Shown here in pieces: positions 13,835 through 36,712 of a stretch of 64,000 bases of DNA. Within the stretch, counting starts at the first letter, position 1. Each line of letters starts with the position of its first letter. Under the pieces are notes generated by a model that worked only from the letters and a program-made list of their open reading frames with translations, searched no databases and was not told the origin of the DNA. The position numbers and the translations under genes were made by a program. This DNA comes from Sphingomonas endolithica (GTDB lineage: Bacteria; Pseudomonadota; Alphaproteobacteria; Sphingomonadales; Sphingomonadaceae), in contig NZ_CP103057.1 of NCBI RefSeq assembly GCF_025231525.1, positions 3,792,501-3,856,500 of the forward strand, read 5' to 3'.

Positions 13835-13848
13835 TGATAACGCTACCA
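13835..13848. promoter_or_regulatory. LacI-type operator A (xylan regulon)
   Basis: TGATAACGCTACCA, reverse complement TGGTAGCGTTATCA. It lies 68 bp before the TonB receptor start and 113 bp before lacI-1. It matches the other four sites of the set (23800, 25048, 32702, 36699), and the core has the central CG of LacI-family operators. Confidence 0.72.
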
Positions 13849-13960
13849 AATTGTCTTTCGATGTCAACGGGACCACCAATACTTAATTCATAGTTTCTCC
13901 CAACTAGGTCGATCCGTTGCCAAAATAGCACGCAGCTAGACCACCAGGAATAAGGTGCGT

Positions 13961-15022
13961 ATGTCAACGTGGTCAGTCGACGAGAAAGTTGCATGTGCCT
14001 TGACCATCCATAAGCGACGCACGACGATCATCGACGTGGCGCGGTTGGCTGCCGTGTCGAGCAAGACCGTGTCGCGGGTGATGAACGGCGAGCCGCATGT
14101 CACCGATGATGTGAAGCGTCGGGTCAGAGCGGCGGCCGATTCACTCAATTACTATCCCAACATCATGGCTCAGGCGTTGGTCAATCGGCGCTCGCATCTC
14201 ATTGGATTGGTGTACGAAAATCCGTCGCCGAGTTATGTCGTCGAATTGCAGATGGGCGTGTTGCAGCGCTTGCGCGACGAACGATACCGCATGGTGGTGG
14301 TGCCGGTGATGTCGATCTCGGAGCGCGCGCGCGACGTGGTGCAGCTGTTGCGCTCGGCGGCGCTCGACGGCGTGGTGCTGGCCCCGCCGGCCTCCGACCA
14401 TCCCGAACTGCTCGCCGATCTGGCCGCCGCCGGCATCCGCTGCGCGCGGATCGCGCCGACCCGCGCGCTGGATGCCGCGCCCAGCAACGTCGTCGACGAT
14501 GTCACCGCAGCGCGCGAGATCGCGCAATATGTGATCGGGCTCGGCCACCGCGACATCGCGATCATCAAGGGCGACCCGACGCATGCCGCGACCGAGGCAC
14601 GCCTGCTCGGCTACACACAGGCGCTGCATGCCGCCGGTGTGCCGATCCGTCTGGACTGGATCGAGGGCGGCATGTTCACGCGCGCGAGCGGGGAGGCGGC
14701 TGGACGTCGGCTGTTGTCGCAGCAGGACCGGCCGACCGCGATCCTGGCGCAGAATGACGACATGGCCGTCGGCGCGCTGATGGCCGCGCGCGTGCTGGGC
14801 TTGCGCGTGCCCGAAGACGTGTCGATCGTCGGCTTCGACGATTCCGAAGTCGCGCAGATCAGCTGGCCACGCATCACCACGGTGCGTCAGCCGGTGTTCG
14901 AGATGGCCGTCGCCGCGACCGACATGGTGCTGGCGCAGCTGAACGGTGGCACCGTGACCATGCGGCGTAACCATGCGCACGAACTGATCATCCGCGAATC
15001 AGCCGCGGAACCGCTGCGCTGA
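13961..15022 (+). CDS. LacI family transcriptional regulator (lacI-1)
   Basis: LacI/GalR repressor, 353 aa. The N-terminal helix-turn-helix is IDVARLAAVSSKTVSRVMNGE, followed by the hinge helix NIMAQALVNRR and a periplasmic-binding-protein-like effector domain with LGHRDIAII, ILAQNDDMAVGAL and VSIVGFDDSEVA. It is divergent from the TonB receptor and followed 80 bp later by a GH3 gene on the same strand. ATG at 13961 is preferred over a GTG two codons earlier. A candidate operator of a second type overlaps the start codon (13962-13975), which suggests autoregulation. The effector is probably a sugar released by the GH3 enzyme; this is inference. Confidence 0.93.
   Translation: MSTWSVDEKVACALTIHKRRTTIIDVARLAAVSSKTVSRVMNGEPHVTDDVKRRVRAAADSLNYYPNIMAQALVNRRSHLIGLVYENPSPSYVVELQMGVLQRLRDERYRMVVVPVMSISERARDVVQLLRSAALDGVVLAPPASDHPELLADLAAAGIRCARIAPTRALDAAPSNVVDDVTAAREIAQYVIGLGHRDIAIIKGDPTHAATEARLLGYTQALHAAGVPIRLDWIEGGMFTRASGEAAGRRLLSQQDRPTAILAQNDDMAVGALMAARVLGLRVPEDVSIVGFDDSEVAQISWPRITTVRQPVFEMAVAATDMVLAQLNGGTVTMRRNHAHELIIRESAAEPLR
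13962..13975. promoter_or_regulatory. candidate second-type LacI operator over lacI-1 start
   Basis: TGTCAACGTGGTCA, one mismatch from the reverse complement of the site at 15037-15050 (TGTCAACGTTGTCA). Binding here would block initiation of lacI-1. A weaker relative, TGTCAACGGGACCA, is at 13862-13875. The match could partly be chance because the site is also coding. Confidence 0.4.
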
Positions 15023-15036
15023 GCTGGCTTGTTCGT

Positions 15037-15050
15037 TGACAACGTTGACA
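15037..15050. promoter_or_regulatory. candidate second-type LacI operator before GH3
   Basis: TGACAACGTTGACA, with central AACGTT and TG...CA ends, a common LacI-family pattern. It lies between lacI-1 and the GH3 gene, 53 bp before the GH3 start. It is distinct from the TGGTAGCGCTATCA class. Confidence 0.6.
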
Positions 15051-15102
15051 TAAACGAAGCATGGATTGGCTGAGAAAAGACGTCACCGGAGAGGACCCAA
15101 AG

Positions 15103-17646
15103 ATGCGCCAGAAACACGACAGGCTTCGTACGCTCCTGCTGAGCGCCGCCACGGTGTCGGCAGCGCTTGCCGCCCCTGCACTGACATGGGCGCAGGTCGC
15201 GCCCGCGCCGCAGAGCGCGACGCCGGCAGTGGTGCCGCCAAGGCCGTCGTCATCGGTGGTGCATCCCGCGATCTGGCCGAAGGTATCCTGGCCGATCAAG
15301 CGCGACGCCAAGATCGAGGCGCGCATCGCCGATCTGCTGCGCCGCATGACGATCGAGGAGAAGGTCGGCCAGGTGATCCAGGCCGACATCGCCAGCGTCA
15401 CGCCCGAGGACGTCAAGCGCTACCATCTGGGGTCGGTGCTGAACGGCGGCAGCTCGGGGCCAGGCAATGACGATCTGGCACCGGCGCAGAAATGGCTGGA
15501 ACTGGCCGATGCCTTCTATGCCGCCTCGACCGATCGCAGCGCGGGCGGCGTGGGCGTGCCTGTCATCTGGGGCACCGATGCGGTGCACGGCCACAGCAAC
15601 ATCGTCGGCGCGACGCTGTTTCCGCACAATGTCGGGCTGGGCGCGGCGAACGATCCCGACATGATCGAGCGCATCGGCGCTGCGACGGCGGCCGAGATCC
15701 GCGTGACCGGGCAGGAATGGACCTTCGCGCCGACCATCACCGTGCCGCAGGATGCGCGCTGGGGGCGGACCTATGAGGGGTATTCGTCCGATCCCGCGCT
15801 GGTCGCCAGCTATGCCGGGCGGATGATCCTTGGTTTGCAGGGCGCGCCGGGCAATCGCATCCTGGCGGGTCCCCACGTGCTCGCCAGCACCAAGCATTTC
15901 ATCGCCGATGGCGGCACATTCGAAGGTCGCGACCAGGGCGATGCGCGGATCAGCGAGGAGACGCTGCGCGACGTGCATGGCGCGCCTTATGTGCCGGCGA
16001 TCGGCGCGGGCGTGGGCACGGTGATGACCAGTTTCTCGAGCTGGAACGGCACCAAGATCGCCGGGCATCATGGCCTCGTTACCGACGTGCTGAAGGGACG
16101 GATGGATTTCGGCGGCTTCGTGGTGACCGATTGGAACGCGCATGGCCAGGTTGCCGGCTGCACCAATGCCAGCTGCCCGCAGGCGATCAATGCCGGGATC
16201 GACATGTACATGGCGCCGGACAGCTGGCGCGCGCTGTACGGATCGCTGCTGGCGCAGGCCAAGGACGGCACGGTGCCGGCGGCGCGGTTGAACGATGCAG
16301 TGGCGCGGATCCTACGCGTGAAGCTGCAGATCGGGCTGTTCGAGGCGGGCAAGCCATCGTCGCGGCCGCTGTCGGGGCAGTGGCAGTTGCTGGGATCGGC
16401 CGAGCATCGCGCCTTGGCGCGCGACGCAGTGGCGAAGTCGCTGGTGCTGTTGAAGAATACCGGCGTGCTGCCGCTCAAGCGCGGGGCGAACATCCTGGTC
16501 GCGGGCGATGCGGCGGACGATATCGCGCGCCAATCGGGCGGCTGGACCTTGAGCTGGCAGGGCACGGGGCTGACCAACGCCAACTTCCCTGGTGCGACAT
16601 CAATCTGGAGCGGCATCCGCCAGGCAGCCGCGCAGAGTGGCGGCTCGGCCGAGCTGTCGCCCGGCGGTACGTTCGCCAAGAAGCCGGATGCGGCGATCGT
16701 GGTGTTCGGCGAAACGCCGTATGCCGAGTTCCAGGGCGACATCAAGGCGCTGCAACTGCGCCCCGAATTGCGCGCGCCGCTGGCGACGATGCGGCGGTTG
16801 AAGGCGCAGGGCATTCCAGTGGTGGCGGTCATGCTGACCGGACGACCGCTGTTCGTGGGACCCGAACTCAACACGGCGGATGCGTTCGTCGTCGGCTGGT
16901 TGCCGGGCAGCGAAGGGGCAGGGATTGCCGACCGGCTGTTCGCGCGCGCCGATGGCAGCGCGCCGGGCTTCACCGGGCGGCTGTCGATGGCGTGGCCGGC
17001 TACCGCGCGGCCGGGCGGGCCGACCTTGTTCCCGTTGCGCTATGGCCTGAGCGGCACCGAGGCGCCGATGCCGTGGAAGCCGGTCGGCGAGGATGCCGGC
17101 GTTGCTGACGATGATACCGGCGGCATCTATTTCGCCGATGGCGTGCCTGCCGCGGGCTGGTCGCTGTCGGTCGGCAATGGCGAGAGCGACACGACGCGGA
17201 TCACCACCGTGCCGGCGCAGGCGCTCGCCGGCCGCGTGCGGGTGACGGCGATCGACGCGCGCGTGCAGGAAGGCGGTCGCGCGTTCGACCTGCGCGGCGG
17301 CGGCCCGCAGGTGGTGTCGCTGAGCCCGGCGGCGTCGCTGGATTTGTCACGCGAGGCCAATGGCGACGTGATGGTGGTGGCGACGATGCGCTTCGACAGC
17401 GCGCCGGCGAGCGATGCGCGCATCGTGGCGCGATGCGGCGCGACCTGCGGTGGCGCAGCGATCCCGCGCGATGTGGCGCAGGGCAAGTGGCTGACGGTGG
17501 GCGTGCCGCTGCGTTGTTATGGTGCGGCGGGCGCGATCGCGCAGGTGGCCACCCCGTTTGCGATCAGCACGCGCGGCGCAATGAAGGTCGCGGTGGCGCG
17601 CGTGGCGCTGGGGACGGCGGCTGACCGGGTGCTGAAATGCGACTGA
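15103..17646 (+). CDS. GH3 exo-beta-glucanase / beta-glucosidase-like enzyme
   Basis: Glycoside hydrolase family 3 enzyme of 847 aa with a signal peptide (to about ALTWAQ). The N-terminal barrel shows GTDAVHGH, QDARWGRTYEGYS and the catalytic nucleophile Asp in FVVTDWNAHG. The C-terminal GH3 domain contains KNTGVLPLKRG and LPGSEGAGIADRLF. A further C-terminal domain of about 180 residues, starting around IYFADGVPAAGW, resembles the beta-sandwich of marine ExoP-type glucanases. The start at 15103 has a ggagagg site; an in-frame ATG at 15061 lacks one. It follows lacI-1 and carries its own LacI-type operator, so it may answer to a different sugar (beta-glucan) than the xylan genes. Confidence 0.92.
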   Translation: MRQKHDRLRTLLLSAATVSAALAAPALTWAQVAPAPQSATPAVVPPRPSSSVVHPAIWPKVSWPIKRDAKIEARIADLLRRMTIEEKVGQVIQADIASVTPEDVKRYHLGSVLNGGSSGPGNDDLAPAQKWLELADAFYAASTDRSAGGVGVPVIWGTDAVHGHSNIVGATLFPHNVGLGAANDPDMIERIGAATAAEIRVTGQEWTFAPTITVPQDARWGRTYEGYSSDPALVASYAGRMILGLQGAPGNRILAGPHVLASTKHFIADGGTFEGRDQGDARISEETLRDVHGAPYVPAIGAGVGTVMTSFSSWNGTKIAGHHGLVTDVLKGRMDFGGFVVTDWNAHGQVAGCTNASCPQAINAGIDMYMAPDSWRALYGSLLAQAKDGTVPAARLNDAVARILRVKLQIGLFEAGKPSSRPLSGQWQLLGSAEHRALARDAVAKSLVLLKNTGVLPLKRGANILVAGDAADDIARQSGGWTLSWQGTGLTNANFPGATSIWSGIRQAAAQSGGSAELSPGGTFAKKPDAAIVVFGETPYAEFQGDIKALQLRPELRAPLATMRRLKAQGIPVVAVMLTGRPLFVGPELNTADAFVVGWLPGSEGAGIADRLFARADGSAPGFTGRLSMAWPATARPGGPTLFPLRYGLSGTEAPMPWKPVGEDAGVADDDTGGIYFADGVPAAGWSLSVGNGESDTTRITTVPAQALAGRVRVTAIDARVQEGGRAFDLRGGGPQVVSLSPAASLDLSREANGDVMVVATMRFDSAPASDARIVARCGATCGGAAIPRDVAQGKWLTVGVPLRCYGAAGAIAQVATPFAISTRGAMKVAVARVALGTAADRVLKCD

Positions 17647-18943: not shown

Positions 18944-19888
18944 CTATCTGTTCGTCGAGCCCGGTGCCCGCCCTCGTTCCACATGCTTGCGCGCCTCCAG
19001 CCAGCCGCCATCGGCCAGCCAGTCGGCTAGGCGATCGGGCCAGTGCAGGATCGAGATCCGGTTGCTCTCGTCGAGATTGAAGGCGTGGTCGGCCTCGGCA
19101 TACATGTGGAGTTCGGCCGAGACGCCGGCTTTGCGCAACTGCTCGTAGAGCGTCACCGCGGGGGCGGCGCAGCAGGCGTCCAGCGAGCCGGCGGTGATGA
19201 AGGCGGGGGGTGCGCTCGCCGCGGCCTTGGCGGGGATGCCGAGCGGTCCGGGGAAGACGAGCACCTGGAAGTCGGGACGTGCACTCAGGGCGTCGATCGC
19301 ATCGGGTTTGTAGGCGGCGCGAGTACGCGGCGGCGGGGCGGGATTGTCGGCGACCAGCGAGACGAGTTCGCCGCCGGCGGAGAAGCCCATGATGCCGACG
19401 CGTGCCGGATCGATGCCGTAGCGTGTGGCATTGGCGCGCACCCAGCGGATCGCGCGGCGTGCATCGTCAACCGCGTCGCCCTCGATCGAGTAAGGCGTGC
19501 CGGGTTCGCGCGCGAGGCGGTATTTGAGCACGAAGGCGCTGACGCCGTAGCGGTTGAGCGCGGTGGCGACGCGGGTGCCTTCGTTGGTCCAAACCAGCAG
19601 GCGGTGCCCGCCGCCGGGCACGATGACGATCGCCGCGCCATTGTTGTGCTCGGGGGCCGCGGGGAAGGCGAGTAGCGAGGGGGCGTGCACGTTGCGCACC
19701 CAGTAATCGCGGCCGATCTCCGCCTCCTTGGCGCGGGCGGCGCTGCCGGGGGCGCCGCCCGGCCACAACGCGATCGCGTCATAGCGGGGCGGCGGCACGG
19801 GGGCGGGGTCGTCCGCCGCGCCGATCAGGACAAAGGGCAGCGCCAGCACCAGGCGTGTCCACCACGCGCGCGGGCGCGCCCAGGTCAT
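18944..19888 (-). CDS. secreted alpha/beta-hydrolase, probable (acetyl)xylan esterase
   Basis: Alpha/beta hydrolase of 314 aa with a signal peptide (TRLVLALPFVLIGAADD). The BD-FAE/acetylesterase-like signature is present: an oxyanion loop PGGGHRLL, nucleophile elbow GFSAGGE, and a C-terminal His in EADHAFNLD. It starts 1 bp after the xylA stop and is thus the last gene of the GH43-xylB-xylA-esterase operon. The most likely role is removing acetyl groups from xylo-oligosaccharides in the periplasm. The long in-frame N-terminal extension available upstream overlaps xylA and is not used. Confidence 0.87.
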   Translation of the reverse strand: MTWARPRAWWTRLVLALPFVLIGAADDPAPVPPPRYDAIALWPGGAPGSAARAKEAEIGRDYWVRNVHAPSLLAFPAAPEHNNGAAIVIVPGGGHRLLVWTNEGTRVATALNRYGVSAFVLKYRLAREPGTPYSIEGDAVDDARRAIRWVRANATRYGIDPARVGIMGFSAGGELVSLVADNPAPPPRTRAAYKPDAIDALSARPDFQVLVFPGPLGIPAKAAASAPPAFITAGSLDACCAAPAVTLYEQLRKAGVSAELHMYAEADHAFNLDESNRISILHWPDRLADWLADGGWLEARKHVERGRAPGSTNR

Positions 19889-19889
19889 A

Positions 19890-21197
19890 TCAGAGGAACC
19901 GGTTGATGAGGTTCTCGATGCGCTCCTGCTGGCCGGAACGGGGCTTTGGATCGATGTTCCGCTCGACCGCGAGATCGGCGATTTCCGCCAGGCTGCGGCT
20001 GCCGATATCGGTGCCGAAGCCGCTGTCCCAGCCGGCGTAGCGATCGGCGCGGATGCTATCGAGGCGACCGTCCTCGATGATCGCGGCGGCGTTGAGCAGG
20101 CCCTTGGCGACGACATCGATGCCGCCGACATGCCCGTAGAACAGATCGGCCGGATCCATGCTCTGGCGCCGTACCTTGGCATCGAAATTGAAGCCGCCGG
20201 TGGTGAAGCCGCCAGCGCGGATGATCTCGATCATCGCCAGCGTCAGTTCCTCGACCGAATTGGGGAATTGATCGGTGTCCCAGCCATTCTGCGGATCGCC
20301 GCGATTGGCGTCGATCGAGCCGAAGATGCCGAGCGCGCGGGCGGTGGCGATTTCGTGTTCGAACGTGTGGCCGGACAACGTGGCGTGGTTGGCCTCGATG
20401 TTGACCTTGACCTCGTTCTCCAGGCCGTAGCGTTTGAGGAAGCCGTACACGGTCGCGGTGTCGAAATCGTATTGGTGCTTGGTCGGTTCGTGCGGCTTGG
20501 GTTCGATCAGGATCGTGCCGGTGAAGCCGATCTTGTGCTTGTGCTCGACCACGAGGCTCAGGAAGCGGCCGAAATTATCGAGCTCGCGCTTCATGTCGGT
20601 GTTGAGCAGCGTCTCGTACCCCTCGCGACCGCCCCACAGCACGTAATTCTCGCCGCCCAGGCGGTGCGTGGCTTCGAGCGCGTCGCGGACCTGCAATGCG
20701 CCGAACGCGAACACTTCCGGATCGGGGTTGGTGGCGCCGCCGGCGGCAAAGCGCGGGTGGCTGAACAGGTTGGCGGTGCCCCACAGGAGCTTGCGGCCGG
20801 AGGAGGCCTGGAGCTGTTCGAGATGGTCGACCGCCTCGGCGAAGAAGCGGCGATGCTCGGTGATGTTGGCGGCGTCGGCCATGACGTCAACGTCGTGGAA
20901 GCAGTAGAAGGGCACGTCGAGCTTCTGGAAGAAGTCGAACGCGACCTCGCGCTTCTCGGCGGCCGCCGCGCTGTCGTTCGCGCCGCGATGCCATGGGCGA
21001 TCGAAGGTGCCGCCGCCGAACACGTCGCTGCCGGGCCAGCAGAAGGTGTGCCAGAAGCAGGCGGCGAAGCGCAGATGCTCCTCCATCGTCTTGCCGAGCA
21101 CGACGCGCTTCTTGTCGTAGAAGCGATACGCCAGCTCGTTGCGGCTGTCGGGGCCTTCATAGGCGATCGGGGCGATATCGGCGAAGAAATCGGACAT
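19890..21197 (-). CDS. xylA: xylose isomerase
   Basis: Converts D-xylose to D-xylulose in the cytoplasm; 435 aa, a normal length for the class II enzyme. His101 and Asp104 (FHDVD) match the catalytic pair of the E. coli enzyme. The metal-site motifs [31 protein letters not shown] and [20 protein letters not shown] are all intact. The ATG follows directly on the xylulokinase TAA (TAAATG), and the gene precedes the esterase by 1 bp. It belongs to the operon under operator B at 23800. Confidence 0.98.
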
Positions 21198-22658
21198 TTA
21201 CGCGTTCCTTGGGGAGATTTTGGGGGTGATGCGGGAATAGGCCTGGCGAAAGGCGGCTTTCTTGGCGGCGAGCGCCGAGATCAGCGCCGGATCGGGCGAT
21301 ACGGTGTGCGAGACGGGCGGGGCGACGCAAACGGTGGTGGGGTCGCCGCGGTCGACCGCCAGCTGTGCAAGGCGGGCGGCGCCGAGCGCGGGGCCGACTT
21401 CGCCGCCCTGCAGATAGACGAGTTCGACCTCCATCGCGGCGGCAATGACGCGGCCCCAATAGCTGGAGCGCGCACCGCCGCCGATCACCGACAGGCGATC
21501 GACCACGGTGCCGGCCTCGCGCAGCACGTCGAGCCCGTCGGCGAGCGCGAAGGCGACGCCTTCGAGCACCGCCTCGGCCAGGCGGCCGGCATCGGTATCA
21601 TTGTCGAGATTGAGGAAGGCGCCGCGCACGTCGGCATCGTTGTGCGGCGTGCGCTCGCCCGAGAGATAGGGGAGGAACAGTTCCGGGCCGCTTGCGGGGC
21701 CAGCGGCTTCGGCGCGGGCGAACAGGTCGGCGGCACCTGTCGCACCGGTGATCCGCGCGACCCAGTCGATGCACGAAGCCGCCGAAAGGTGGACCGACAT
21801 CTGGTGCCACATGCCCGGCAGCGCGTGGCAGAAAGCGTGCACCGCGCGCGCCGGATTGGGGCGGAAGTCGTCGGTGGCGACGAAGATGACGCCCGACGTG
21901 CCGAGCGACAGCAGGGCATCGCCATCGCGCACCACGCCGACGCCGATCGCGCCTGCGGCATTGTCGCCGCCACCCGCCGCGACGGGTACCTGGGGCATAC
22001 CCCACAGTTCCGCGATGTCGGCGCTCAAGGTGCCGGTGATCTCGGAGCCCTCGAAAAGCTTCGGCATCTGCGCTTGCGTGAGCCCGCAGGCGCCAAGCAG
22101 CACGTCGCTCCAGCGGCGCGCGCCAACGTCGAGCCACAGCGTGCCGGCGCTGTCCGACAGATCGGAGGCCTTGTCGCCGGTCATGCGCAGGCGGACATAA
22201 TCCTTGGGCAGCAGCACGGTCGCTACCTGCGCGAAGATCTCCGGTTCATGCGCGCGCACCCAGAGCAATTTGGGCGCCGTGAAACCGGGCATGGCGATGT
22301 TGCCGGCGATCGCGCGCAGATCGGGCACGGCCTGTTCCAGCGCGGCGCATTCGGCAAAGCTGCGGCCGTCGTTCCACAGGATTGCGGGCCTGAGCGGCCG
22401 GTCATCGGCGTCGAGCAGGGTCGCGCCGTGCATCTGCCCGGCAAGGCCGATGCCGCGCACTGCCCGGCGCACGCCCGGATCGATCGCCTGCACCGCGGCG
22501 ATCGTCGCGCGCCACCACGCCTCCGGATCCTGTTCAGACCAGGAAGGATGCGGCCGTTGCACGGTGAGTGCGGCAACGCCTTGCCCAGCAACGCCGCCCG
22601 CTTCGTCGAGCACGACGGCCTTCACGCCGGACGTGCCGATATCGATCCCCAGGAACAT
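21198..22658 (-). CDS. xylB: xylulokinase
   Basis: FGGY-family sugar kinase (486 aa) that phosphorylates D-xylulose to xylulose 5-phosphate for the pentose phosphate pathway. The phosphate-binding start GIDIGTSGVKAVVLD, the GLAGQMHGA motif and the ATP-domain motifs GDNAAGAIGVGV and VIGGGARSSYW are intact. It lies 5 bp after the GH43 gene and directly abuts xylA, so the three are co-transcribed. The name xylB follows E. coli usage and should not be confused with the Caulobacter xylB dehydrogenase, represented here by the SDR at 28607. Confidence 0.97.
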   Translation of the reverse strand: MFLGIDIGTSGVKAVVLDEAGGVAGQGVAALTVQRPHPSWSEQDPEAWWRATIAAVQAIDPGVRRAVRGIGLAGQMHGATLLDADDRPLRPAILWNDGRSFAECAALEQAVPDLRAIAGNIAMPGFTAPKLLWVRAHEPEIFAQVATVLLPKDYVRLRMTGDKASDLSDSAGTLWLDVGARRWSDVLLGACGLTQAQMPKLFEGSEITGTLSADIAELWGMPQVPVAAGGGDNAAGAIGVGVVRDGDALLSLGTSGVIFVATDDFRPNPARAVHAFCHALPGMWHQMSVHLSAASCIDWVARITGATGAADLFARAEAAGPASGPELFLPYLSGERTPHNDADVRGAFLNLDNDTDAGRLAEAVLEGVAFALADGLDVLREAGTVVDRLSVIGGGARSSYWGRVIAAAMEVELVYLQGGEVGPALGAARLAQLAVDRGDPTTVCVAPPVSHTVSPDPALISALAAKKAAFRQAYSRITPKISPRNA

Positions 22659-23746: not shown

Positions 23747-23799
23747 AATCTTCGGGTCCATCCTAATGGCGATCTTCTGCGAGATCTGTCGTGGGCATC

Positions 23800-28606: not shown

Positions 28607-29389
28607 CTAGCGCCAGCCGGCATCGACCCAGTAATTGTGGCCGGTGCACATGCGGGCATCGTCGGAGGCGAGGAACAGCGCCATCGCGGCGATGTCGGAG
28701 GGCTGGATGCGGCCGTCCAGGCATTGTGCGGCGACGATCTCGGCCTCGCCTTCGGGCGTGTACCATTTTTCCTGGCGCGGGGTCTGGACGTTGCCGGGGA
28801 TGATCGCGTTGACGCGAATGCCGTCGCGGCCGAGATCGCGTGCCAGGCTGCGCGTCATGCCCTCGATCGCGGCCTTGGCGGTCTGGTAGAGGATCAGGTC
28901 ATTCAGCGCGAGGTGCCAGCTGATCGACCCGAAATTGACGATCACGCCGCGGCCGGCCGCCTTCATCGCGGGCACCACGGCCTGCGCGGCGAAGAACAGG
29001 TGGCGCAGATTGACGTTCATGCGCTGGTCCCAATAGGCCGGCGTCACGTCCTCGATGCTGTGGCGATCATCGTTGGCCGCATTGTTGATCAGCACGTCGA
29101 TACCGTCCAGCTGGTCCATCAGCCGCGCGAAGGTGACGTCCAGCGCGGCCAGATCGGTCAGGTCGAGGTGGTGGAAGATCGGTGCGTGCGCGGCGTGCGG
29201 GGTGAGGCGGGCGACGAGCGCCTGGCTGTCCGCCTCCGCCACGTCGACGAAAGCGACCCGCGCGCCCTGTGCCACGAACGCCTCGACCAGCCCGGCGCCG
29301 ATGCCGGAGCCGCCGCCGGTGATGATGACGCGCTTGTCGCGGAGCGAAGGGTAATGTGCGCTGCGGTGGGTATCGGCATTGTGGGACAC
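28607..29389 (-). CDS. D-xylose 1-dehydrogenase (SDR), Caulobacter XylB type
   Basis: NAD-dependent short-chain dehydrogenase, 260 aa, expected to oxidise D-xylose to xylonolactone. The cofactor motif GGGSGIG is at 25-31, NNAAND near 102-107, and the catalytic residues are Ser155, Tyr168 and Lys172. Its sequence, notably NDDRH, NVNLRH, QEKWYTPEGEAEIVAAQCL and the end DAGWR, closely recalls Caulobacter XylB xylose dehydrogenase (not computed). The start is GTG with an aggaaa site. It is the last gene of the SGNH/CE4-xylX-SDR unit, 18 bp after xylX. L-arabinose is the main alternative substrate. Confidence 0.92.
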   Translation of the reverse strand: MSHNADTHRSAHYPSLRDKRVIITGGGSGIGAGLVEAFVAQGARVAFVDVAEADSQALVARLTPHAAHAPIFHHLDLTDLAALDVTFARLMDQLDGIDVLINNAANDDRHSIEDVTPAYWDQRMNVNLRHLFFAAQAVVPAMKAAGRGVIVNFGSISWHLALNDLILYQTAKAAIEGMTRSLARDLGRDGIRVNAIIPGNVQTPRQEKWYTPEGEAEIVAAQCLDGRIQPSDIAAMALFLASDDARMCTGHNYWVDAGWR

Positions 29390-29407
29390 GTGGATTTCCT
29401 AGCTAGA

Positions 29408-30550
29408 TCAGGCGGAGAGCAGGCCGCGGCCGGCGAGATTGCGCATCAGCGCGGTGGCGCCGAATGCCCATGGCGGAGCGGCCTTGGAGGTGGTGACGAC
29501 ATTGATCAGCCGTCCGAGCCCCGGCGTGGCGATCGAGACGGTGTCGCCGATCTTGTGCGTGAAGCCGCGGCCGGGTTCGTCGCGGTCCTTGGTCGGCGCG
29601 AACAGGGTGCCGAGGAACAGCACGAAGCCATCGGGATATTGATGCTCGCTCAGCGCCTGGCGGACGAGTTCGAGCGGATCGCGGCTGATCTGGTCCATCG
29701 AGCTGACCCCGTCCAGCACATAGCCGTCGGTGCCTTCGATGCGCAGCGTCACCTGCGCGCGGCGGACATCGTCGATCGTGAACGCATCGTCGAACAGGCG
29801 GACGAACGCGCCCAGCGCGCAGGACGCATTATTGTCCTTGGCCTTGCCCAGCAGCAGCGCGGAGCGGCCCTCGAAATCGCGCAGGTTGACGTCGTTGCCG
29901 ATCGTCGCGCCGACCACAGTGCCGTCCGCGGCGACGAGCAGCACGATTTCGGGCTCCGGGTTGTTCCAGGTGGAATCCGAACGCACGCCGATCTCGGCAC
30001 CCCAGCCGACCGTCGACAGCGGCGGCCCCTTGGTGAAGATCTCCGCATCGGGGCCGATCGCGACCTCCAGATATTGCGACCACAGGCCTTCCTCGATCAG
30101 CACGGTCTTGAGTTCGGCGGCTTCGGGCGTACCCGGCGCGACGCGGGCCAGCCCGCCGCCGATGCGATCCTCCAGCCGGCCACGCACCGCGGCAGCGGCG
30201 CTGGCATCGCCGCGCGCGCGTTCCTCGATCACGCGTTCCAGCGCCGAGGTGGCAAAGGTGACACCCGCTGCCTTCACGCATTGAAAGTCGATCGGGCTGA
30301 GCAGGCGCGGCGAGCCGCCCGGCGACAGGCCGAGCGTGGCGAGATCGCCGAGGGGTTCGCCGGCGCCCGGATCGAACGCGCGCAGGGCGACGAGTTCGGC
30401 CACGGTGGGCGCGACCATCGCCATGTCGTGCGCGATGCCGTCCGCGACGAGGATCGGGGTCGGCCCGTCACCACGGTCGATACGGCCAAGCCAGCGCCCG
30501 GTGCGCCAATCGGGACCGAGCGCGTCGGCAGGATCGAAAGCGAAGGTCAT
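29408..30550 (-). CDS. xylX: 2-keto-3-deoxy-D-xylonate dehydratase (FAH family)
   Basis: Fumarylacetoacetate-hydrolase-fold enzyme of 380 aa that would convert 2-keto-3-deoxyxylonate to alpha-ketoglutarate semialdehyde. Metal-binding Glu and Asp lie in WNNPEPEIVLL and NDVNLRDFEG, and AKDNNASCA, RDPLELV and YPDGFVLFLGTLFAP agree with the Caulobacter XylX pattern as I recall it. It starts 12 bp after the SGNH/CE4 gene with a ggagttt site and is followed by the xylose dehydrogenase. The last Weimberg enzyme, the semialdehyde dehydrogenase, is absent from the window. Confidence 0.92.
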   Translation of the reverse strand: MTFAFDPADALGPDWRTGRWLGRIDRGDGPTPILVADGIAHDMAMVAPTVAELVALRAFDPGAGEPLGDLATLGLSPGGSPRLLSPIDFQCVKAAGVTFATSALERVIEERARGDASAAAAVRGRLEDRIGGGLARVAPGTPEAAELKTVLIEEGLWSQYLEVAIGPDAEIFTKGPPLSTVGWGAEIGVRSDSTWNNPEPEIVLLVAADGTVVGATIGNDVNLRDFEGRSALLLGKAKDNNASCALGAFVRLFDDAFTIDDVRRAQVTLRIEGTDGYVLDGVSSMDQISRDPLELVRQALSEHQYPDGFVLFLGTLFAPTKDRDEPGRGFTHKIGDTVSIATPGLGRLINVVTTSKAAPPWAFGATALMRNLAGRGLLSA

Positions 30551-30562
30551 GGGAAACTCCGG

Positions 30563-32680
30563 TCAGCTGCACAGGCCGGCGGGCGGGCCGGCAAGCGCGG
30601 GGGTGGCAGGCGGCCCGGCCAACGACGGCGTCGTGCCGGGCAACGACAGATCGACTGCCGCGGCATAATAGGGATCGGCCTCGGCCTCCGCCAGCGTGAT
30701 GAAGCGAAAGCCCATCTCGCGGTAGAGGTCGAGCAGGCGCGGCAGCATGTGCGCATCGAACGCGCCGACATGCATCAACAGCACGTAGGGTATGTCTCGG
30801 CCGACCTGCGCCTTGGCGCGGGCGCGCGAGGCCAAGGCGGCGGCACGGGCATCGGCGAGGAAGCCTGCCTCCAGCCGCGCGATCGCCGCCGCGTCGCGCT
30901 TGGCGACGCAGGCGGTGTACGGCGCGTTCCAGGCGAAGTCGCCGAAGCTCATTGTCACGGCCGCCGCGCGGTAGCCGCGCGCCTTCAAGTCGGCGCGTGC
31001 GGCATCGCGGACGGCAGGCGTGCCGCCTTCTGACAGGAACGGACAGCGGAACCAGTGCCAGTCCGTGCCCTTGGCTGCGGCAGCAAGGGGGGCCTCGTTG
31101 CGCGCGACGTCCGCGGCGAAGGTGGCAGCGCCGATCTGGTCGAGATTGCCGTGCGTATAGCTGTGGTTGCCAAGCGGCAGCCCGGCGGCGCGCCACGCGG
31201 CAGTCGCCTGCGCCGCATCGGCCGGATCGTCCAGCCCGAAGCCGGCATTGAGGAAGCCGAACGCCGGTGCCTTTGCTGCGGCGAGCGCGGTAGCGATGCG
31301 GCCGATCACGTCCTTGCGCGTCTCGCCGGGAAGTAACGGGCCGTGTGCGGGTATGTCGTCGAAGGTGAAGGCAATGGCGGGCCGCTGATCGGTGGCCGGG
31401 CCGACCGGCTGGCGGGCGACGGCGCCCAGCATCGGTGCGGTGGTGCGTGACTTGAACAGGTCGAGCGGTACGGCGGCGCCCATCACGCGATAGCCCGCCT
31501 CCGAGGGGTGGAGGTGGTCGCCCGAATCCAGAGCGGGTGCGAGGCGATCGGGGCGGACGGGATCGCGCATCACCGCGTCGAAATCGATCACAGCATCGAA
31601 CGCGCCGGAGCTGCGGATGAAGCGGTTGATCGCCTGGCGATCGGCTTCCGAAGCGGGGCCGGCATGGTAATAATCGTTGCCGACGAACGGCATCACCGTG
31701 CCGCCGATCACCTTGATGCCGTGCGCATGCGCGCGGGCGACGATCTGGCGGTAGCCGGCGGTGACCTGCGCGACGATCGCCGCGTGCTGCGCGGGCGTGG
31801 CGGGTGCGTCGCGGGTGAGCACGCCGAGATCGTTGATGCCCTCCAGCACGATCGCCCAGCGCACGCCGCTGCGCGCGATCACGTCGCGATCGAACCGCGC
31901 GAGCAGGTTTGGCCCGACTCCGTCGAGCAGCACGCGGTTGCCGCCGATGCCGGTATTGACCAATCCGATGCCGCGCGTGGCGGCGTTGCTGCGCAAGCGG
32001 GCGGCGAGGATGTCGGGCCAGCGCGTATTGCGATCGGGCGTTACGCCGTAGCCGTCGGTGATCGAATCACCGATCGTCACGACCGTGCCGGTGCTGCCTG
32101 GACCGGAAACTTCGACATCAGCCAGCGCATACCAATGCGTGGTCGGCACGGCGCCAGTGAGCGCCGCATCGGCGACGTGATCGCCGGCGAGCGTGAAGCC
32201 GGTCGCTCGGGCGCCGGGATGACCGGTCTGCGGCACTGCCGCTTCGGGCAGGTACAGGCTGACCGCGAGATCTAATCCCGGCGCGATTGGCATGGCGACC
32301 GGATCGGCATAGAGTTCAGCGCCGGCCGGGATCACCGCGGTTGGACGGCCGGCAAAGGTCATGCGGGCGCCCGCGGCGATACGCGCCGTGCCCGGCGCCA
32401 CGGCGCGGGCGACATGCGCCCCGCCGATGACGAGCGGGCGGGTGCCGAAGGCGTTGGAGAGCCGGATGCGCACCGTGTCGCCACCGGCAGAAAGCCGCAC
32501 GATTTGTCGCAACGTCACGGCCCCGGCGCGATCGGGTGCAAGCGCATTATCGCCATCGGCGATCATCTGCGCCGATCCCCAGCTCGCGATCCAATGGGCC
32601 GGGCGCGCGTTCGTAGTGCGTGCATCGGCGCCGCCCGCTAGCAAGGCCAGGCCGATCAGCGCGGAGTGCCACAGCCGCAT
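30563..32680 (-). CDS. SGNH/GDSL esterase fused to CE4 polysaccharide deacetylase
   Basis: Exported two-domain protein of 705 aa; signal peptide residues 1-20. Residues about 25-410 form an SGNH hydrolase with nucleophile Ser206 (GDSITDG), GINDLG, and the Asp388/His391 pair in DHLHPS. Residues about 430-680 form a NodB/CE4 deacetylase with Asp441-Asp442 (TFDD), metal motif HSYTH (506-510), RCPF near 545 and LLMHVGAFD. Both active sites look intact, so the protein may deacetylate xylan by two chemistries. A Pro/Ala/Gly-rich tail ends in Cys. It heads the operon with xylX and the dehydrogenase, 22 bp downstream of operator D, with an aggag site. The deacetylase part could instead act on another N- or O-acetylated polymer. 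Confidence 0.92.
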   Translation of the reverse strand: MRLWHSALIGLALLAGGADARTTNARPAHWIASWGSAQMIADGDNALAPDRAGAVTLRQIVRLSAGGDTVRIRLSNAFGTRPLVIGGAHVARAVAPGTARIAAGARMTFAGRPTAVIPAGAELYADPVAMPIAPGLDLAVSLYLPEAAVPQTGHPGARATGFTLAGDHVADAALTGAVPTTHWYALADVEVSGPGSTGTVVTIGDSITDGYGVTPDRNTRWPDILAARLRSNAATRGIGLVNTGIGGNRVLLDGVGPNLLARFDRDVIARSGVRWAIVLEGINDLGVLTRDAPATPAQHAAIVAQVTAGYRQIVARAHAHGIKVIGGTVMPFVGNDYYHAGPASEADRQAINRFIRSSGAFDAVIDFDAVMRDPVRPDRLAPALDSGDHLHPSEAGYRVMGAAVPLDLFKSRTTAPMLGAVARQPVGPATDQRPAIAFTFDDIPAHGPLLPGETRKDVIGRIATALAAAKAPAFGFLNAGFGLDDPADAAQATAAWRAAGLPLGNHSYTHGNLDQIGAATFAADVARNEAPLAAAAKGTDWHWFRCPFLSEGGTPAVRDAARADLKARGYRAAAVTMSFGDFAWNAPYTACVAKRDAAAIARLEAGFLADARAAALASRARAKAQVGRDIPYVLLMHVGAFDAHMLPRLLDLYREMGFRFITLAEAEADPYYAAAVDLSLPGTTPSLAGPPATPALAGPPAGLCS

Positions 32681-32701
32681 CGTTCATCCACTCCTGGTTT
32701 T

Positions 32702-32715
32702 CGTTAGCGCTATCA
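32702..32715. promoter_or_regulatory. LacI-type operator D (xylan regulon)
   Basis: CGTTAGCGCTATCA, 21 bp upstream of the SGNH/CE4 start. Eight central bases TAGCGCTA are perfectly palindromic. The rest of the gap 32716-32870 shows nothing else recognisable. Confidence 0.68.
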
Positions 32716-32870: not shown

Positions 32871-34526
32871 TCATTGATTCCACGCATAGGGGCCGATGAT
32901 GGTGCCGACGAAACCGCCGGCGCGTTCGGTGCTGAGGAAGCTCGCGTCGAGGTCCGCCTTTAGCGTGCGGCGCTGCTGGCCGATGCGGTAGTCGAACGCC
33001 ATGGTGCCGCCATCGGCGCGGATGGTGAGTGTTACCGGGCCTCGAACCGGGAGCGGTGCCGAGGCGACCAGCGTGTCGGTCTTTGTCTTGTCGCGTGTGT
33101 AGAGGGCGATTCGCGGCGCTCCGGCGGTGCGGGTGACGCCGAAGAACAGGAACGAGTCGTCGCTTTGCATCGCGGCCAGGCCGGCACGGTCGCCGTCCTG
33201 GTCGGGCACGTAATCGAGCAATGTCGTGATGGTCGCGACATGGTGTTGCTGGCGGCGCCCGACAAACGCCGGCACGCCGGTGAGATCGCCGAGCGGTGCG
33301 CCACGCTCAAGGATGAGCGCGCCCTTTTCGAGCCGGTAGACGGGCGCATGCGGGGTGCGCACGCCGATCCACGCGAGCCCGAGCCGCGCGCCATCGAAGC
33401 TGTCGGTGTAGCGCAGGTCGCCACGCGCCGCTTCCGCGGAGCGTGGCTGGGGCGGCAGTTTGGGGCGCGGCGCGACGAACGGGATCGGCGTGCCGGCGGG
33501 CAGGATATGCGGCCAGCCATCGCGCCAGGTGACCGGCAGCAGGAAGGTTTCCCGCCCGATATTGTACTGGCCGCCGCGATAGGGGCGGGTGGCGAGGAAG
33601 GTCGCCCACCAATCGCCGGCCTGCGTCTGCACGAACTTGGCGTGGCCGGCCGAGGTAACGGGGTGGGGGCGAGTGGCGGCGAGGCTACGCTGGCTGAGGA
33701 TCGGATTGCCGGGGTAGGGCACGAACGGCCCGCGCGGGGAGGGGGCGCGGAACACGACTTCCGAATGGTTGTCGCCGGTGCCGCCTTCCGCCGCGATCAG
33801 GTAATAGAAGCCATCACGCTTGAGCAGGTGCGGTCCCTCGATCCAGGACGGCTTGGTGGAGATGTCGACGCCCCCATTGACGATCTGCGTACGCGGGCCG
33901 ACCAGCTTCTTCGCGCGCCAGTCGAATTGCTGCACCCAGATCGCACGGTGCCCATCATAGCGCGGCGGTTCGTTCGGCGGACCGTTATTCACGATCCAGG
34001 CCGTGTCGCCCTCCCAGAAGATCGAGGGATCGATGCCGTCGAAATCCAGCCACACCGGGTCCGACCAGGGGCCGGCCGGGTTGGTCGCGGTGATCAGGAA
34101 ATTGCCGCGGCAATCGACGCAGGTGTTGACGATGTAGAAGGTGCCGGCATGTGCGGAGATGTCGGGCGCGAACACGCCGCGCGACGTGCCGAGCCCGGAG
34201 AAGTCGAGCTGGCTCGGGCGGTTGATGGCGTTGCCGATCTGCGTCCAGCTGACCAGGTCCCTGGAGTGGAAGATCGGCAGACCGGGGAAGTGCGCGAAGG
34301 ATGAATTGACGAGGTAATAATCGTCGCCAACGCGCGTGATCGAGGGATCGGGGTGATAGCCCGCCAGGATGGGGTTGCGATAGTCACCCGGGCCCGCCAC
34401 CGCGCGTTCCTGCGCGCGGCCGTCATAATCGAAGCGCTCGAAGCGGGCGGGACCGCCTTGGGCCGCGCTTGCCACTGCGGCGGACAGGGCCGCGGCGAGC
34501 AGGCGCTGGCAGTACTTGGGATCCAT
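32871..34526 (-). CDS. GH43 beta-xylosidase with C-terminal beta-sandwich domain, exported
   Basis: GH43 enzyme of 551 aa with a signal peptide (LAAALSAAVASAAQG). The catalytic base Asp is in YHPDPSITR, the middle Asp in FDGIDPSIFWE and the acid Glu in WIEGPHLLK. Residues from about 370 on form the beta-sandwich module (DSFDGARLGLAWIG...) that completes the active site in XynB-type xylosidases, so removal of xylose from xylo-oligosaccharides is likely. An ATG at 34544 overlaps the aguA stop, but the start at 34526 has a good aaagga site. It is the second gene of the aguA operon. Confidence 0.93.
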   Translation of the reverse strand: MDPKYCQRLLAAALSAAVASAAQGGPARFERFDYDGRAQERAVAGPGDYRNPILAGYHPDPSITRVGDDYYLVNSSFAHFPGLPIFHSRDLVSWTQIGNAINRPSQLDFSGLGTSRGVFAPDISAHAGTFYIVNTCVDCRGNFLITATNPAGPWSDPVWLDFDGIDPSIFWEGDTAWIVNNGPPNEPPRYDGHRAIWVQQFDWRAKKLVGPRTQIVNGGVDISTKPSWIEGPHLLKRDGFYYLIAAEGGTGDNHSEVVFRAPSPRGPFVPYPGNPILSQRSLAATRPHPVTSAGHAKFVQTQAGDWWATFLATRPYRGGQYNIGRETFLLPVTWRDGWPHILPAGTPIPFVAPRPKLPPQPRSAEAARGDLRYTDSFDGARLGLAWIGVRTPHAPVYRLEKGALILERGAPLGDLTGVPAFVGRRQQHHVATITTLLDYVPDQDGDRAGLAAMQSDDSFLFFGVTRTAGAPRIALYTRDKTKTDTLVASAPLPVRGPVTLTIRADGGTMAFDYRIGQQRRTLKADLDASFLSTERAGGFVGTIIGPYAWNQ

Positions 34527-34540
34527 GTGCTGTCCTTTCG

Positions 34541-36646
34541 TCATTGCGGGTTGCCGGGGGCGTCCGGGAAGCTCAGCGCCTTGTACCAGGCGAGATCATG
34601 CTCGGGCGGCGCGCTGCCCGGCGGGAGCGGAAGCTGGTTGAGCGACATCCAATAGGCCAGGCTGGCATCGCGCCACCAACGTGCTTCGCGCGCCTGCACC
34701 GCCAGCAGCGTGGCGGTCTTTTGCCAGCGTTCGGCATCGATGCGCGGCTCGAGCGCGGCCCAGCGGCGCTGCATGTCGGCGACGGTGGCGACGCCGCGAT
34801 CGTAGCGCTGGACCAGTTCCTCCCACACCGTGCGCCCCGTCGACAGGCGGTAGTCCCAGCGCAGGTGGTGAAACCACAGCAATTCGGTAAGCGGCGTCTT
34901 TGCCGGATCGCTATAGGCGCGCGCCAGCCGCGGCGCGTACTGCGCGACGGCGTTGCTCCCGGTCTTCGTCCGGTCGAAGCCGATGCCCTCGTGGTCGCCG
35001 CGGTGATAATAGACGGGGTTCCATTCCGGACGTGCGAGGTCCGATACCCACGGGCCGGGCCCGTAATGATGCCCGGTGGCCATCAGGTGCGCGAGGCCCA
35101 GCGGGCCGGTGTAATCGACCACCGCCTCGCGCGATCCCGCCATAATCGGGATGATCGCATCGACGAGAGCGGGGTCGCTGCCGAAGGTCTGCTCCACCCA
35201 TTCGCGGGCGATGTCCCGGGATGACAGCGCAGGATCCCACGCCAGGCGACCGAACGCGTACCAGTTTGCCTGGTTGAAGCTCGATCCGCTCCAGTCGCGA
35301 TCGTCGCCGATATTGGCGACGCCGGCCATGCCGCTTATGCCGTGATGCTCGGCCGCCCCGCTGACGACGCTGCCGACCGTCTCGCCACGCCGCGCGCCGG
35401 TCTGGGCATCCAGCACTTCCTCGAACAGCGGGCCGAGATAGGCGAGGTGGCTGGCGAACCCGAGATATTCCTTGGTGATCTGGAATTCGATCATCAGCGG
35501 CGTCTTGGGAATCGCGCCGAACAGCGGGTGGAACGGCTCGCGCGGCTGGAAGTCGATCGCGCCGTTCTTTACCTGCACGATGACGTTGTCGGCGAACTTG
35601 CCGTCGAGCGGCTTGAACTCGGCATAAGCCTGCTTGGCGCGGTCTTGCGGATCGGTATCGGCATAGACGAAGGCGCGCCACATCACGATGCCGCCGTGCG
35701 GCTTCACAGCGGCGGCGAGCATGTTGGCGCCGTCCGCATGGCTGGCGCCGTAATCGCGCGGGCCCGGCTGGCCTTCGCTGTTCGCCTTGACCAGGAAGCC
35801 GCCAAAATCGGGGATAGCGCGGTAGATTTCGTCGGACTTGGCGCGCCACCAGGCGGCGACGGCGGGATCGCGCGGGTCGGCGGTCTTCAACCCACCAAGC
35901 TCGATCGGGGCGGAAAAGCGGGCCGAGAGGTAGACCTTGATGCCGTACGGTCGGAAGATATCGGCCAGTGCCGCGGCCTTGGCGATGTAGCGCGGGGTGA
36001 GGCTGATCGCCTTGGCGTTGACGTTGTTCAGCACCGTGCCGTTGATGCCGATCGACGCGTTGGCACGGGCATAATCGGTGTAGCGCGGGTCTTTCAGCTC
36101 GGGCAGCGACCACCAGTCCCATAGCGAGCGACCGGCATAGCCGCGCTCCACCACGCCATCCAGATTATCCCAATGATCGAGGATGCGCAGCTTCACGGCC
36201 GGGCTGGAGCTGAGCGAGACGCGCTCGATCGACGCGCCGGTGGCCAGATGGCGCAGCAAGGCGAACGTTCCGTACAGCAGGCCGCGATCGGTGTTGCCGG
36301 TAACCAAAGTAACAGAGCGGCCGGCTACGGTCGCACGACGCACCAGATAGCCTTCGTCCCCGAGCTGCGCGGTCGGCAGCCGCAATTCGGCGAGCCGGGG
36401 ATCGCCGGCCGGCGCGAGCATCACCGGCCCGGCGCCGGCGGGCAAGCCGCGCCGTAGCTCCGCTGCCGCTGCTGCCAGCACCGGTGTCGCCGGCGCGGCG
36501 TCGATCTCGCTCGTGGCGGTGACCGCGGGATAGCGCATCCACAGCCGGTAGCCGTCTTCGGCCGAACCCGGCGCGGCGCAGGCCGCGATCGCGGTGGCGA
36601 CAAGCATCGGCAACACATGCGCTCGCCACCGTCGTCCGCTCCTCAT
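34541..36646 (-). CDS. aguA: alpha-glucuronidase (GH67), probable lipoprotein
   Basis: GH67 enzyme of 701 aa that removes 4-O-methyl-glucuronic acid from the end of glucuronoxylo-oligosaccharides. Motifs include YRLWMRYP, DHWDNLDG.VERGYAG, the acid Glu in KANSEGQPGPRDYGASHADGANM, and the Asp/Glu pair in NGAIDFQPREPFHPLF and MIEFQITKEYLGF. The N-terminus has a lipobox-like AIAAC, so it is probably anchored in an envelope membrane. A ggaggagg site precedes the ATG. It is transcribed divergently from the GH3 gene across operator E. Confidence 0.96.
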   Translation of the reverse strand: MRSGRRWRAHVLPMLVATAIAACAAPGSAEDGYRLWMRYPAVTATSEIDAAPATPVLAAAAAELRRGLPAGAGPVMLAPAGDPRLAELRLPTAQLGDEGYLVRRATVAGRSVTLVTGNTDRGLLYGTFALLRHLATGASIERVSLSSSPAVKLRILDHWDNLDGVVERGYAGRSLWDWWSLPELKDPRYTDYARANASIGINGTVLNNVNAKAISLTPRYIAKAAALADIFRPYGIKVYLSARFSAPIELGGLKTADPRDPAVAAWWRAKSDEIYRAIPDFGGFLVKANSEGQPGPRDYGASHADGANMLAAAVKPHGGIVMWRAFVYADTDPQDRAKQAYAEFKPLDGKFADNVIVQVKNGAIDFQPREPFHPLFGAIPKTPLMIEFQITKEYLGFASHLAYLGPLFEEVLDAQTGARRGETVGSVVSGAAEHHGISGMAGVANIGDDRDWSGSSFNQANWYAFGRLAWDPALSSRDIAREWVEQTFGSDPALVDAIIPIMAGSREAVVDYTGPLGLAHLMATGHHYGPGPWVSDLARPEWNPVYYHRGDHEGIGFDRTKTGSNAVAQYAPRLARAYSDPAKTPLTELLWFHHLRWDYRLSTGRTVWEELVQRYDRGVATVADMQRRWAALEPRIDAERWQKTATLLAVQAREARWWRDASLAYWMSLNQLPLPPGSAPPEHDLAWYKALSFPDAPGNPQ

Positions 36647-36698
36647 CCTGCCTCCTCCTCCCCGGTCGGCATTGACAAGCCTTTACCGTGTTTGCGAA

Positions 36699-36712
36699 TG
36701 GTATCGCTATCA
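36699..36712. promoter_or_regulatory. LacI-type operator E in divergent promoter
   Basis: TGGTATCGCTATCA, placed 52 bp from the aguA start and 51 bp from the GH3 start, so one site can serve both directions. A TTGACA at 36672-36677 may be the -35 box for GH3, in which case the operator would overlap its -10 region. Confidence 0.74.

Follow-up and report, generated by a model that had tools for sequence, protein, structure and literature searches.

In this work we analysed an island of xylan-utilization genes in Sphingomonas endolithica and found that five of its transcription units are preceded by the same LacI-type site. The window is the whole 64-kb stretch examined, positions 3792501-3856500 of a 4.09-Mb genome that forms a single contig; coordinates of up to five digits below refer to the window and longer ones to the genome. 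That the five sites are shared is confirmed, since a scan of the window recovers all of those reported by the first-pass annotation. The gene lying between two of them, lacI-2, very probably encodes an XylR-type repressor that binds a 14-bp palindrome, TGNTANCGNTANCA, at the five promoters; the annotation had named LacI-2 as the best candidate for this role, and the proposal is borne out by a between-species comparison of a specificity residue, of site enrichment and of co-occurrence. The sites and their presumed regulator are as follows, ranks being those among the 45 candidates of the home genome when scored with the weight matrix described below.

13835-13848, minus strand: operator 1, TGGTAGCGTTATCA as read on the minus strand, in the gap between the TonB receptor gene (minus strand) and lacI-1 (plus strand); rank 1 of 45.
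23800-23813, minus strand: operator 2, TGGTAGCGCTATCT as read on the minus strand, before a glycoside hydrolase (GH) gene, GH43; rank 5 of 45.
25048-25061, plus strand: operator 3, TGGTAGCGATAACA, an exact palindrome in the gap between lacI-2 and xylD; rank 4 of 45.
32702-32715, minus strand: operator 4, TGATAGCGCTAACG as read on the minus strand, before the SGNH/CE4 gene; rank 6 of 45.
36699-36712, plus strand: operator 5, TGGTATCGCTATCA, an exact palindrome in the divergent GH67/GH3 gap; rank 2 of 45.
23932-25032, plus strand: lacI-2, the proposed xylR repressor gene, recognition helix VSPMTVSR.

The window was scanned with the consensus of the first-pass annotation, TGGTAGCGCTATCA, in both orientations and with up to three mismatches, 100 shuffles serving as control. 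The scan gave 14 matches at nine distinct places (both orientations being counted), against 3.51 +/- 1.88 in shuffled sequence, and none of the 100 shuffles reached 14. In order along the island the five sites differ from TGGTAGCGCTATCA at 1, 1, 2, 2 and 1 positions in their better orientation (for operator 4 this is CGTTAGCGCTATCA); the range of zero to three differences originally given narrows to one or two, with no exact copy. The remaining four places (10875, 23090, 36528 and 63512) all lie within called genes. Operators 1 to 4 are 67 bp from the start codon of the TonB receptor gene, 38 bp from that of GH43, 49 bp from that of xylD and 21 bp from that of SGNH/CE4, respectively, and operator 5 is 52 bp from GH67 on one side and 51 bp from GH3 on the other, so that the measured distances (21-67 bp) fall within the 15-70 bp proposed earlier. 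Scored with a weight matrix trained on 134 distinct sites, all from other species, the five operators reach 20.1-23.0; the next-best position in the window has 13.3.

At the scale of the genome, TGNTANCGNTANCA occurs exactly four times, three of them inside the island; allowing one mismatch gives 45 sites, of which five are in the island and 40 outside the window. From the outside-window rate, 0.23 sites would be expected in the 22.9-kb interval that holds the five (Poisson p = 4e-6), a value that is optimistic because the palindrome was written after the sites had been seen and because the same pattern read backwards, used as a control, is commoner than TGNTANCGNTANCA in the home genome (183 vs 45 sites with at most one mismatch, and 9 vs 4 exact sites). 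For these two reasons the test was moved to other species, where the evidence is independent of these raw home-genome counts. When the other-species matrix is applied to the 45 home-genome candidates, the island sites take ranks 1, 2, 4, 5 and 6; this ranking tests the fine detail of the sites and not the palindrome itself, because the training sites were gathered with the palindrome. Since two mismatches in the core cap the score at 17.95, the list of candidates above that value is complete.

The between-species comparison used the best 80 of the 537 LacI-2 relatives found; among the closest matches, most of the named relatives are Sphingomonas. In a census of 1,024 palindromes of one layout, made in 167 kb of intergenic DNA around these 80 genes, TG.TA.CG.TA.CA ranks first, with 54 occurrences against 0.09 expected from base composition, all other palindromes occurring at most six times. 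In the whole loci, TG.TA.CG.TA.CA is found 55 times in 1.55 Mb, in 37 of the 80, and nine other palindromes are found 0, 1, 0, 0, 9, 0, 0, 0 and 0 times, the 9 belonging to the more G+C-rich TG.CA.CG.TG.CA. The context of the sites was examined in 100 loci (the 80 relatives, 12 further LacI-2 loci and 8 LacI-1 loci) with a simple gene caller, a site at most 60 bp from a gene end being scored as intergenic. All 66 exact sites are intergenic, and 64 of them are distinct at less than 80% identity over 114 bp. Of the 66, 62 lie within 400 bp before a homologue of a window gene, lacI-2 being the sole labelled neighbour in 3 of these; the neighbours of the other four are unlabelled, or none is near. 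A site in a divergent gap being counted for both genes, the genes that follow are GH67 (20), xylX (19), the divergent GH3 (15), the sugar porter (6), SGNH/CE4 (6, as for operator 4 here), xylD (5), the TonB receptor (5), lacI-2 (5) and others in smaller numbers. Sites with one mismatch show the same preference, 116 being intergenic vs 9 inside genes. Around lacI-2 itself, a site with at most one mismatch is present within 350 bp on the 5' side in 30 of the 80 relatives and within 450 bp on the 3' side in 35; operator 2, which also sits in the upstream region of lacI-2, makes autoregulation of this gene possible. These observations bear on the idea that the five sites are chance matches, or a promoter element shared for another reason, and not operators at all. 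Loose matches are indeed frequent in the genome (128 forward and 118 reverse with at most three mismatches), but the sites are enriched at the five window promoters, they precede the same genes across genera despite differing flanks, and a matrix-score gap (20.1 vs 13.3) separates them from the rest of the window, which leaves this explanation scarcely credible.

The attribution of these sites to LacI-2 comes from the recognition helix and from the distribution of the protein. LacI-2 is composed of a helix-turn-helix domain (PF00356, 69.2 bits) and a periplasmic-binding-protein-like effector domain (PF13377, 118.8 bits); NCBIfam models name neither LacI-1 nor LacI-2 at their cut-offs, and the PDB matches are general LacI relatives. 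According to the recognition code of Camas et al. (2010; PMC2978694), half-site bases NT-5 and NT-4 are determined by recognition-helix residues AA-15 and AA-16, with AA-16 having the strongest effect. We compared the helix-turn-helix regions of the nine LacI-family proteins of the home genome at these two residues: the LacI-2 pair is PM, the only one of the nine with methionine at AA-16, and the LacI-1 pair is SK. Methionine is present at AA-16 in 80 of 80 LacI-2 relatives (75 by pattern and 5 by eye). Furthermore, among 60 genomes of the genus, exact sites have a median density of 1.39 per Mb in the 43 that encode a LacI-2 relative (E <= 1e-90) and of 0.0 in the 17 that do not (p = 2.6e-7), the backwards-read control giving p = 0.65; when six genomes less than 90% complete are removed, the medians are 1.39 (41 genomes) and 0.22 (13 genomes), with p = 6e-6 and a control p of 0.10.

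Several observations weigh against this attribution or against its simplest form. Of the 80 loci, 43 have no exact palindrome in the DNA covered and 26 have no site with at most one mismatch next to lacI-2, gene ends being mostly approximate in this count. The closest LacI-2 locus (L070, 83% identical) carries one-mismatch sites only, and the threshold of E <= 1e-90 also lets in paralogues near 48-55% identity. Twelve Massilia/Oxalobacteraceae loci (L121, L123-L125, L127, L129, L130, L132-L134, L136 and L145; recognition pair AM in ten, PM in two) carry downstream of the regulator gene a variant, TGGTTGCGNTAACA, with a shift in one half site, so that residue and operator are not rigidly linked. 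Because related genomes are not independent, the p-values come out too low, by a factor that is not known; one of the 17 same-genus genomes without a LacI-2 relative (G030) has six sites; and beyond the genus several genomes without a relative hold exact sites, up to 20 of them (G076), so that other regulators may use the box there. As a separate observation, the L070 record, which has the highest identity of the best 80, is titled Microvirga sp. SRT01 and the next loci are labelled Sphingomonas; the label may be wrong.

The exact sites beyond the genus also speak for a different explanation, in which several of the nine LacI proteins would share the TGNTA palindrome as a general LacI-family operator and it would define no single-regulator set. 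In genomes from other families of the order that lack a LacI-2 relative at this threshold, exact sites do occur (in G076, 20 vs 2 for the control), and in the home genome the exact site outside the island, at 1789088, is 1.6 kb from another LacI gene, with recognition pair VS. Within the genus, however, the number of sites follows the presence of LacI-2 relatives, methionine at AA-16 is found only in LacI-2 of the nine proteins, the gap between the VS-type LacI gene and its divergent MFS gene contains no site with at most one mismatch (two such sites are present in this locus, L041, neither of them there), and the one orthologue found of the distant receptor keeps a one-mismatch site, CGGTAGCGCTACCA, upstream. 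We therefore consider a general operator to be very unlikely, and LacI-2 remains by far the preferred regulator of the palindrome.

The other regulator to be weighed is LacI-1, which is encoded within the island and adjoins operator 1, and which could in principle bind the five sites alone or equally with LacI-2. The features concerned are the following.

13955-15022, plus strand: lacI-1, second LacI-family regulator gene, recognition helix VSSKTVSR, with operator 1 in its upstream region.
15037-15050, plus strand: proposed LacI-1-class operator, TGACAACGTTGACA, in the gap between lacI-1 and GH3.
15061-17646, plus strand: GH3 glycoside hydrolase with an Exop_C domain, downstream of the LacI-1-type operator.

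In favour of LacI-1, two loci, L240 (4153) and L244 (8812), have an exact TGNTA-type site upstream of the LacI-1 gene, in the divergent gap equivalent to that of operator 1. However, the main specificity residue of LacI-1 is lysine and not methionine, and it is another palindrome, TGWCAACGTTGWCA, that follows LacI-1 across the genus, including the copy at 15037 before GH3. With an orthologue line of at least 57% identity, drawn after the data had been seen, 6 of the 7 same-genus genomes that encode a LacI-1 orthologue contain TGWCAACGTTGWCA, vs 0 of the 31 that do not (Fisher p = 2.5e-6), G027 being the only orthologue-bearing genome that lacks it; in G017 the site and the LacI-1 gene are on separate contigs, and G070, from another family, also carries the palindrome. 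Sites of this class lie upstream of the GH3 homologue in L242, L245 and L246. The TGNTA-type site does not follow LacI-1: among the 8 orthologue loci analysed, of which L243 is truncated on the upstream side, 2 have an exact copy, and no such site with at most one mismatch is found in the TonB receptor/lacI-1 gap of L241 or L242. LacI-1 was accordingly rejected as common regulator on its lysine residue, its own palindrome and its orthologue loci, and a role for it at the five sites, shared or not, is highly improbable. A site of similar type was seen at genome position 2411079 (L286/L062), where TGACATCGATGTCA lies about 80 bp before the operon of another lysine-bearing LacI (PK) and fits the TGACA class.

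With LacI-2 as the probable regulator of the five sites and LacI-1 having its own operator class before GH3, the island is not one regulon. This goes against the first-pass annotation, which had drawn the whole island into a single regulon: lacI-1 and the GH3 gene at 15061 use another operator class, one that tracks LacI-1, and two operator classes are thus, as judged from these sequence comparisons, used in one island. Operator 1 is nevertheless in the upstream region of lacI-1; this hints at an action of XylR on that gene too, but is no proof of it. A tentative extension, which we regard as somewhat less probable than its opposite, is a two-layer network in which LacI-2 would control the divergent region of lacI-1 and the TonB unit, and LacI-1 would gate GH3 through the other operator. 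If this were true, oligosaccharide breakdown of the GH3 type would open only after xylan signals had lifted the first lock. In this reading the isomerase and oxidative branches would also be joined by the XylR box, and how xylose is divided between them would not be decided at this switch.

The first-pass annotation saw the motif in no other intergenic gap that it read; the five sites are shared by the five units, but the set is incomplete, as a strong site is present 2 Mb away. The site at 1789088-1789101 (L041:6089-6102; TGGTAGCGATATCA) is an exact TGNTANCGNTANCA match of rank 3, between an MFS gene and another TonB receptor gene. A search for this receptor in 61 genomes (cut-off 1e-200, at most 15 candidates scored per genome) yielded one orthologue besides itself, in G004, where the upstream CGGTAGCGCTACCA site mentioned above is located (L294:4238). 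The LacI-2 set thus extends, as judged from sequence, beyond the island. Rank 7 is held by CGGTAGCGCTATCA at 3792071 (L004:1501-1514), 430 bp to the left of the window and about 50 bp into the coding sequence, in the signal-peptide part, of the TonB receptor that opens the window (the gene caller put the start later); this site may or may not act as an operator. All candidates below rank 7 score at most 19.03. Among the 40 outside-window sites with at most one mismatch, 22 are inside called genes and 18 are not. A site at 787905 (L260:11906; TGGTAGGGCTATCA, score 15.8) has lost the central CG and lies between a TonB receptor gene and a unit encoding a SASA esterase, a GH3 and a melibiase; it is possibly a degenerated operator, and its neighbours fit. 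Two further sites may or may not belong to the regulon: that at 1645752 (score 17.8) is about 300 bp before a ROS/MUCR gene, and that at 2495538 (18.35) is at the 5' end of a GH9 gene. Others were not accepted as regulon sites because their genes or their scores do not fit: 932667 and 932699, flanked by trpC- and moaC-like genes and each scoring about 13; 457409 (19.0) and 743275 (16.2), both within genes; and 2334840 (18.0), after an H+-pyrophosphatase gene. A group of 17 among the 40, of which 12 are inside called genes and 5 are not, all score at most 15.1.

The position of the operators relative to promoter elements was studied in 176 operator-promoter stretches from relatives, divergent sites being counted twice and near-duplicates removed. 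The 42-bp segments that precede the operator contain 94 TTGACA-like hexamers (at least 5 of 6 bases), whereas 200 first-order Markov controls gave 26.3 on average and never more than 41. The hexamers peak at -19 and at -24 to -26 from the operator. In the island, TTGACA starts 19 bp upstream of operator 1 on the minus strand, and TTGACC starts 19 bp upstream of operator 3 (both counted by eye). Given the main peaks and the usual spacing, the -10 element would fall in the operator. The geometry is not clean, however: the 42-bp segments that follow the operator also contain 52 TTGACA-like hexamers, and a smaller peak is seen at -34; some promoters may be downstream of their operator. On balance the geometry fits a repressor that would exclude RNA polymerase, less firmly than the other lines of support. 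The sites, their gene context and the co-presence of LacI-2 are supported by the data above, and so, less firmly, is the promoter geometry.

The units placed under these operators comprise the following genes; domain scans agree with the gene families of the first-pass annotation for the five units, xylD and xylX being named from context.

10582-13767, minus strand: TonB-dependent receptor (TonB-Xanth-Caul subfamily), first gene under operator 1.
6036-10447, minus strand: SapC, cupin-8, tryptophan-halogenase-family and MocA-type oxidoreductase genes, after the TonB receptor.
22664-23761, minus strand: GH43, first gene under operator 2.
21198-22658, minus strand: xylB, xylulokinase, operator 2 unit.
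19890-21197, minus strand: xylA, xylose isomerase, operator 2 unit.
18944-19888, minus strand: alpha/beta-hydrolase esterase, last gene of the operator 2 unit (scanned with a longer start, 18944-20182).
25111-26889, plus strand: IlvD/Edd-family dehydratase (xylD, for xylonate dehydratase; xylonate models all below cut-off), operator 3 unit.
26926-28353, plus strand: sugar-porter MFS transporter, operator 3 unit.
30563-32680, minus strand: fusion of an SGNH esterase and a polysaccharide deacetylase (CE4), first gene under operator 4.
29408-30550, minus strand: FAA-hydrolase-family protein (xylX), with zero NCBIfam matches.
28607-29389, minus strand: D-xylose 1-dehydrogenase (NF053674 above cut-off).
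34541-36646, minus strand: GH67 alpha-glucuronidase (aguA), divergent from GH3.
32871-34544, minus strand: GH43 with a GH43_C2 (beta-xylosidase-type) domain, downstream of GH67.
36764-39181, plus strand: GH3 with an Fn3-like domain, divergent from GH67.

SapC, cupin-8 and tryptophan-halogenase-family genes are also found near the TonB receptor gene in L240-L242; the role of a halogenase-family protein inside a polysaccharide island is puzzling. A search for an alpha-ketoglutarate-semialdehyde dehydrogenase, the enzyme that a complete Weimberg branch requires, gave nine aldehyde-dehydrogenase matches, one of them the PutA of the window; seven were scanned and none reached the cut-off, so that the Weimberg and the Dahms branch are both possible. 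Near genome position 2394081 (L307:2619), a weak site, TGATAGCGCTGCCT (score 12.4), was seen about 160 bp before an aldehyde dehydrogenase gene without assignment; this enzyme could be the missing semialdehyde dehydrogenase.

We propose the following model, in which binding itself, the sign of the regulation (repression), the inducer and co-induction are what we infer. A LacI-2 dimer would bind the 14-bp TGNTANCGNTANCA at the five island promoters and at least one elsewhere and, as the operator would overlap the -10 region, RNA polymerase would be blocked. Breakdown of xylan would then produce an internal signal that releases LacI-2, and release would jointly switch on the receptor unit, the debranching and hydrolytic enzymes, the sugar porter, xylA/xylB and the oxidative-branch genes (xylose dehydrogenase, xylD-type and xylX-type). 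The signal is probably D-xylose, because xylose is described as the signal in Caulobacter and Xanthomonas and because the marked genes make or use xylose; xylo-oligosaccharides or xylonate are the alternatives. LacI-1 would act separately, through the TGACA-type operator that precedes its own GH3, and has a LacI-2 site in its upstream region.

The finding is well supported and useful, but expected. For Sphingomonas-type bacteria it offers a map of xylan control that can be put to the test (a repressor, a 14-bp address and the genes), and for the PM class of the LacI recognition code it offers natural data. This class is in the recognition-code table, and its predicted palindromes were described in 2010 as not experimentally tested (PMC2978694). 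Compared with the code, our relatives associate methionine at AA-16 with T at NT-4 (TGNTA); the lysine-bearing LacI-1 is associated with TGACA. This suggests that a single specificity residue and its half site, TGNTA vs TGACA, are enough to distinguish from sequence two neighbouring LacI proteins of a sugar island, a distinction that would help in reading other polysaccharide islands. What is added here is the lineage assignment, the separation of LacI-1, the presence of isomerase and oxidative-branch genes under one box, and the PM-class data.

A literature search that covered few subscription journals found no paper on the present regulon in Sphingomonas. S. sanxanigenens is described as having the isomerase, Dahms and Weimberg routes together (PMC10463938), but the accessible part of that source never mentions LacI, operon or repressor; nor does that of PMC4052901 contain the word XylR. 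In Xanthomonas (X. campestris, X. oryzae and X. citri), a LacI-family XylR with a 14-bp xyl-box, TGGTAGCGCTAACA, is said to repress the xyl-box genes of xylan degradation and xylose use, and to be inactivated by xylose (PMC10380989; PMC7748154). This xyl-box, in the form given there, is one base apart from the island consensus, and the five island sites differ from it at one or two positions in the better orientation (by eye), which agrees with the resemblance to an XylR operator noted in the first-pass annotation. According to the same sources, xylA2 is the sole XylR-repressed gene within the xylR locus of X. campestris (PMC7748154) and for X. citri no route other than that through the isomerase is predicted (PMC10380989), whereas in the island the box marks genes of both the isomerase and the oxidative branch, with a TonB receptor unit next to them and a second LacI gene. 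The XylR of Caulobacter crescentus is described as a repressor of the LacI family whose operator, 14 bp long, is part of the xylX promoter and from which xylose releases it (PMC7198004; PMC10380989). As at PxylX of Caulobacter, operator 4 of the island precedes a unit with an xylX-type gene, and two loci labelled Caulobacter and Caulobacterales (L112 and L120) encode LacI-2 relatives of 62 and 64% identity and carry exact sites before xylX homologues; unlike the Caulobacter system, the island also holds xylA/xylB and many xylan hydrolases. Protein domains, operator likeness and gene context together give good support to the view that the island switch is of the same kind as Caulobacter XylR and the Xanthomonas xyl-box system.

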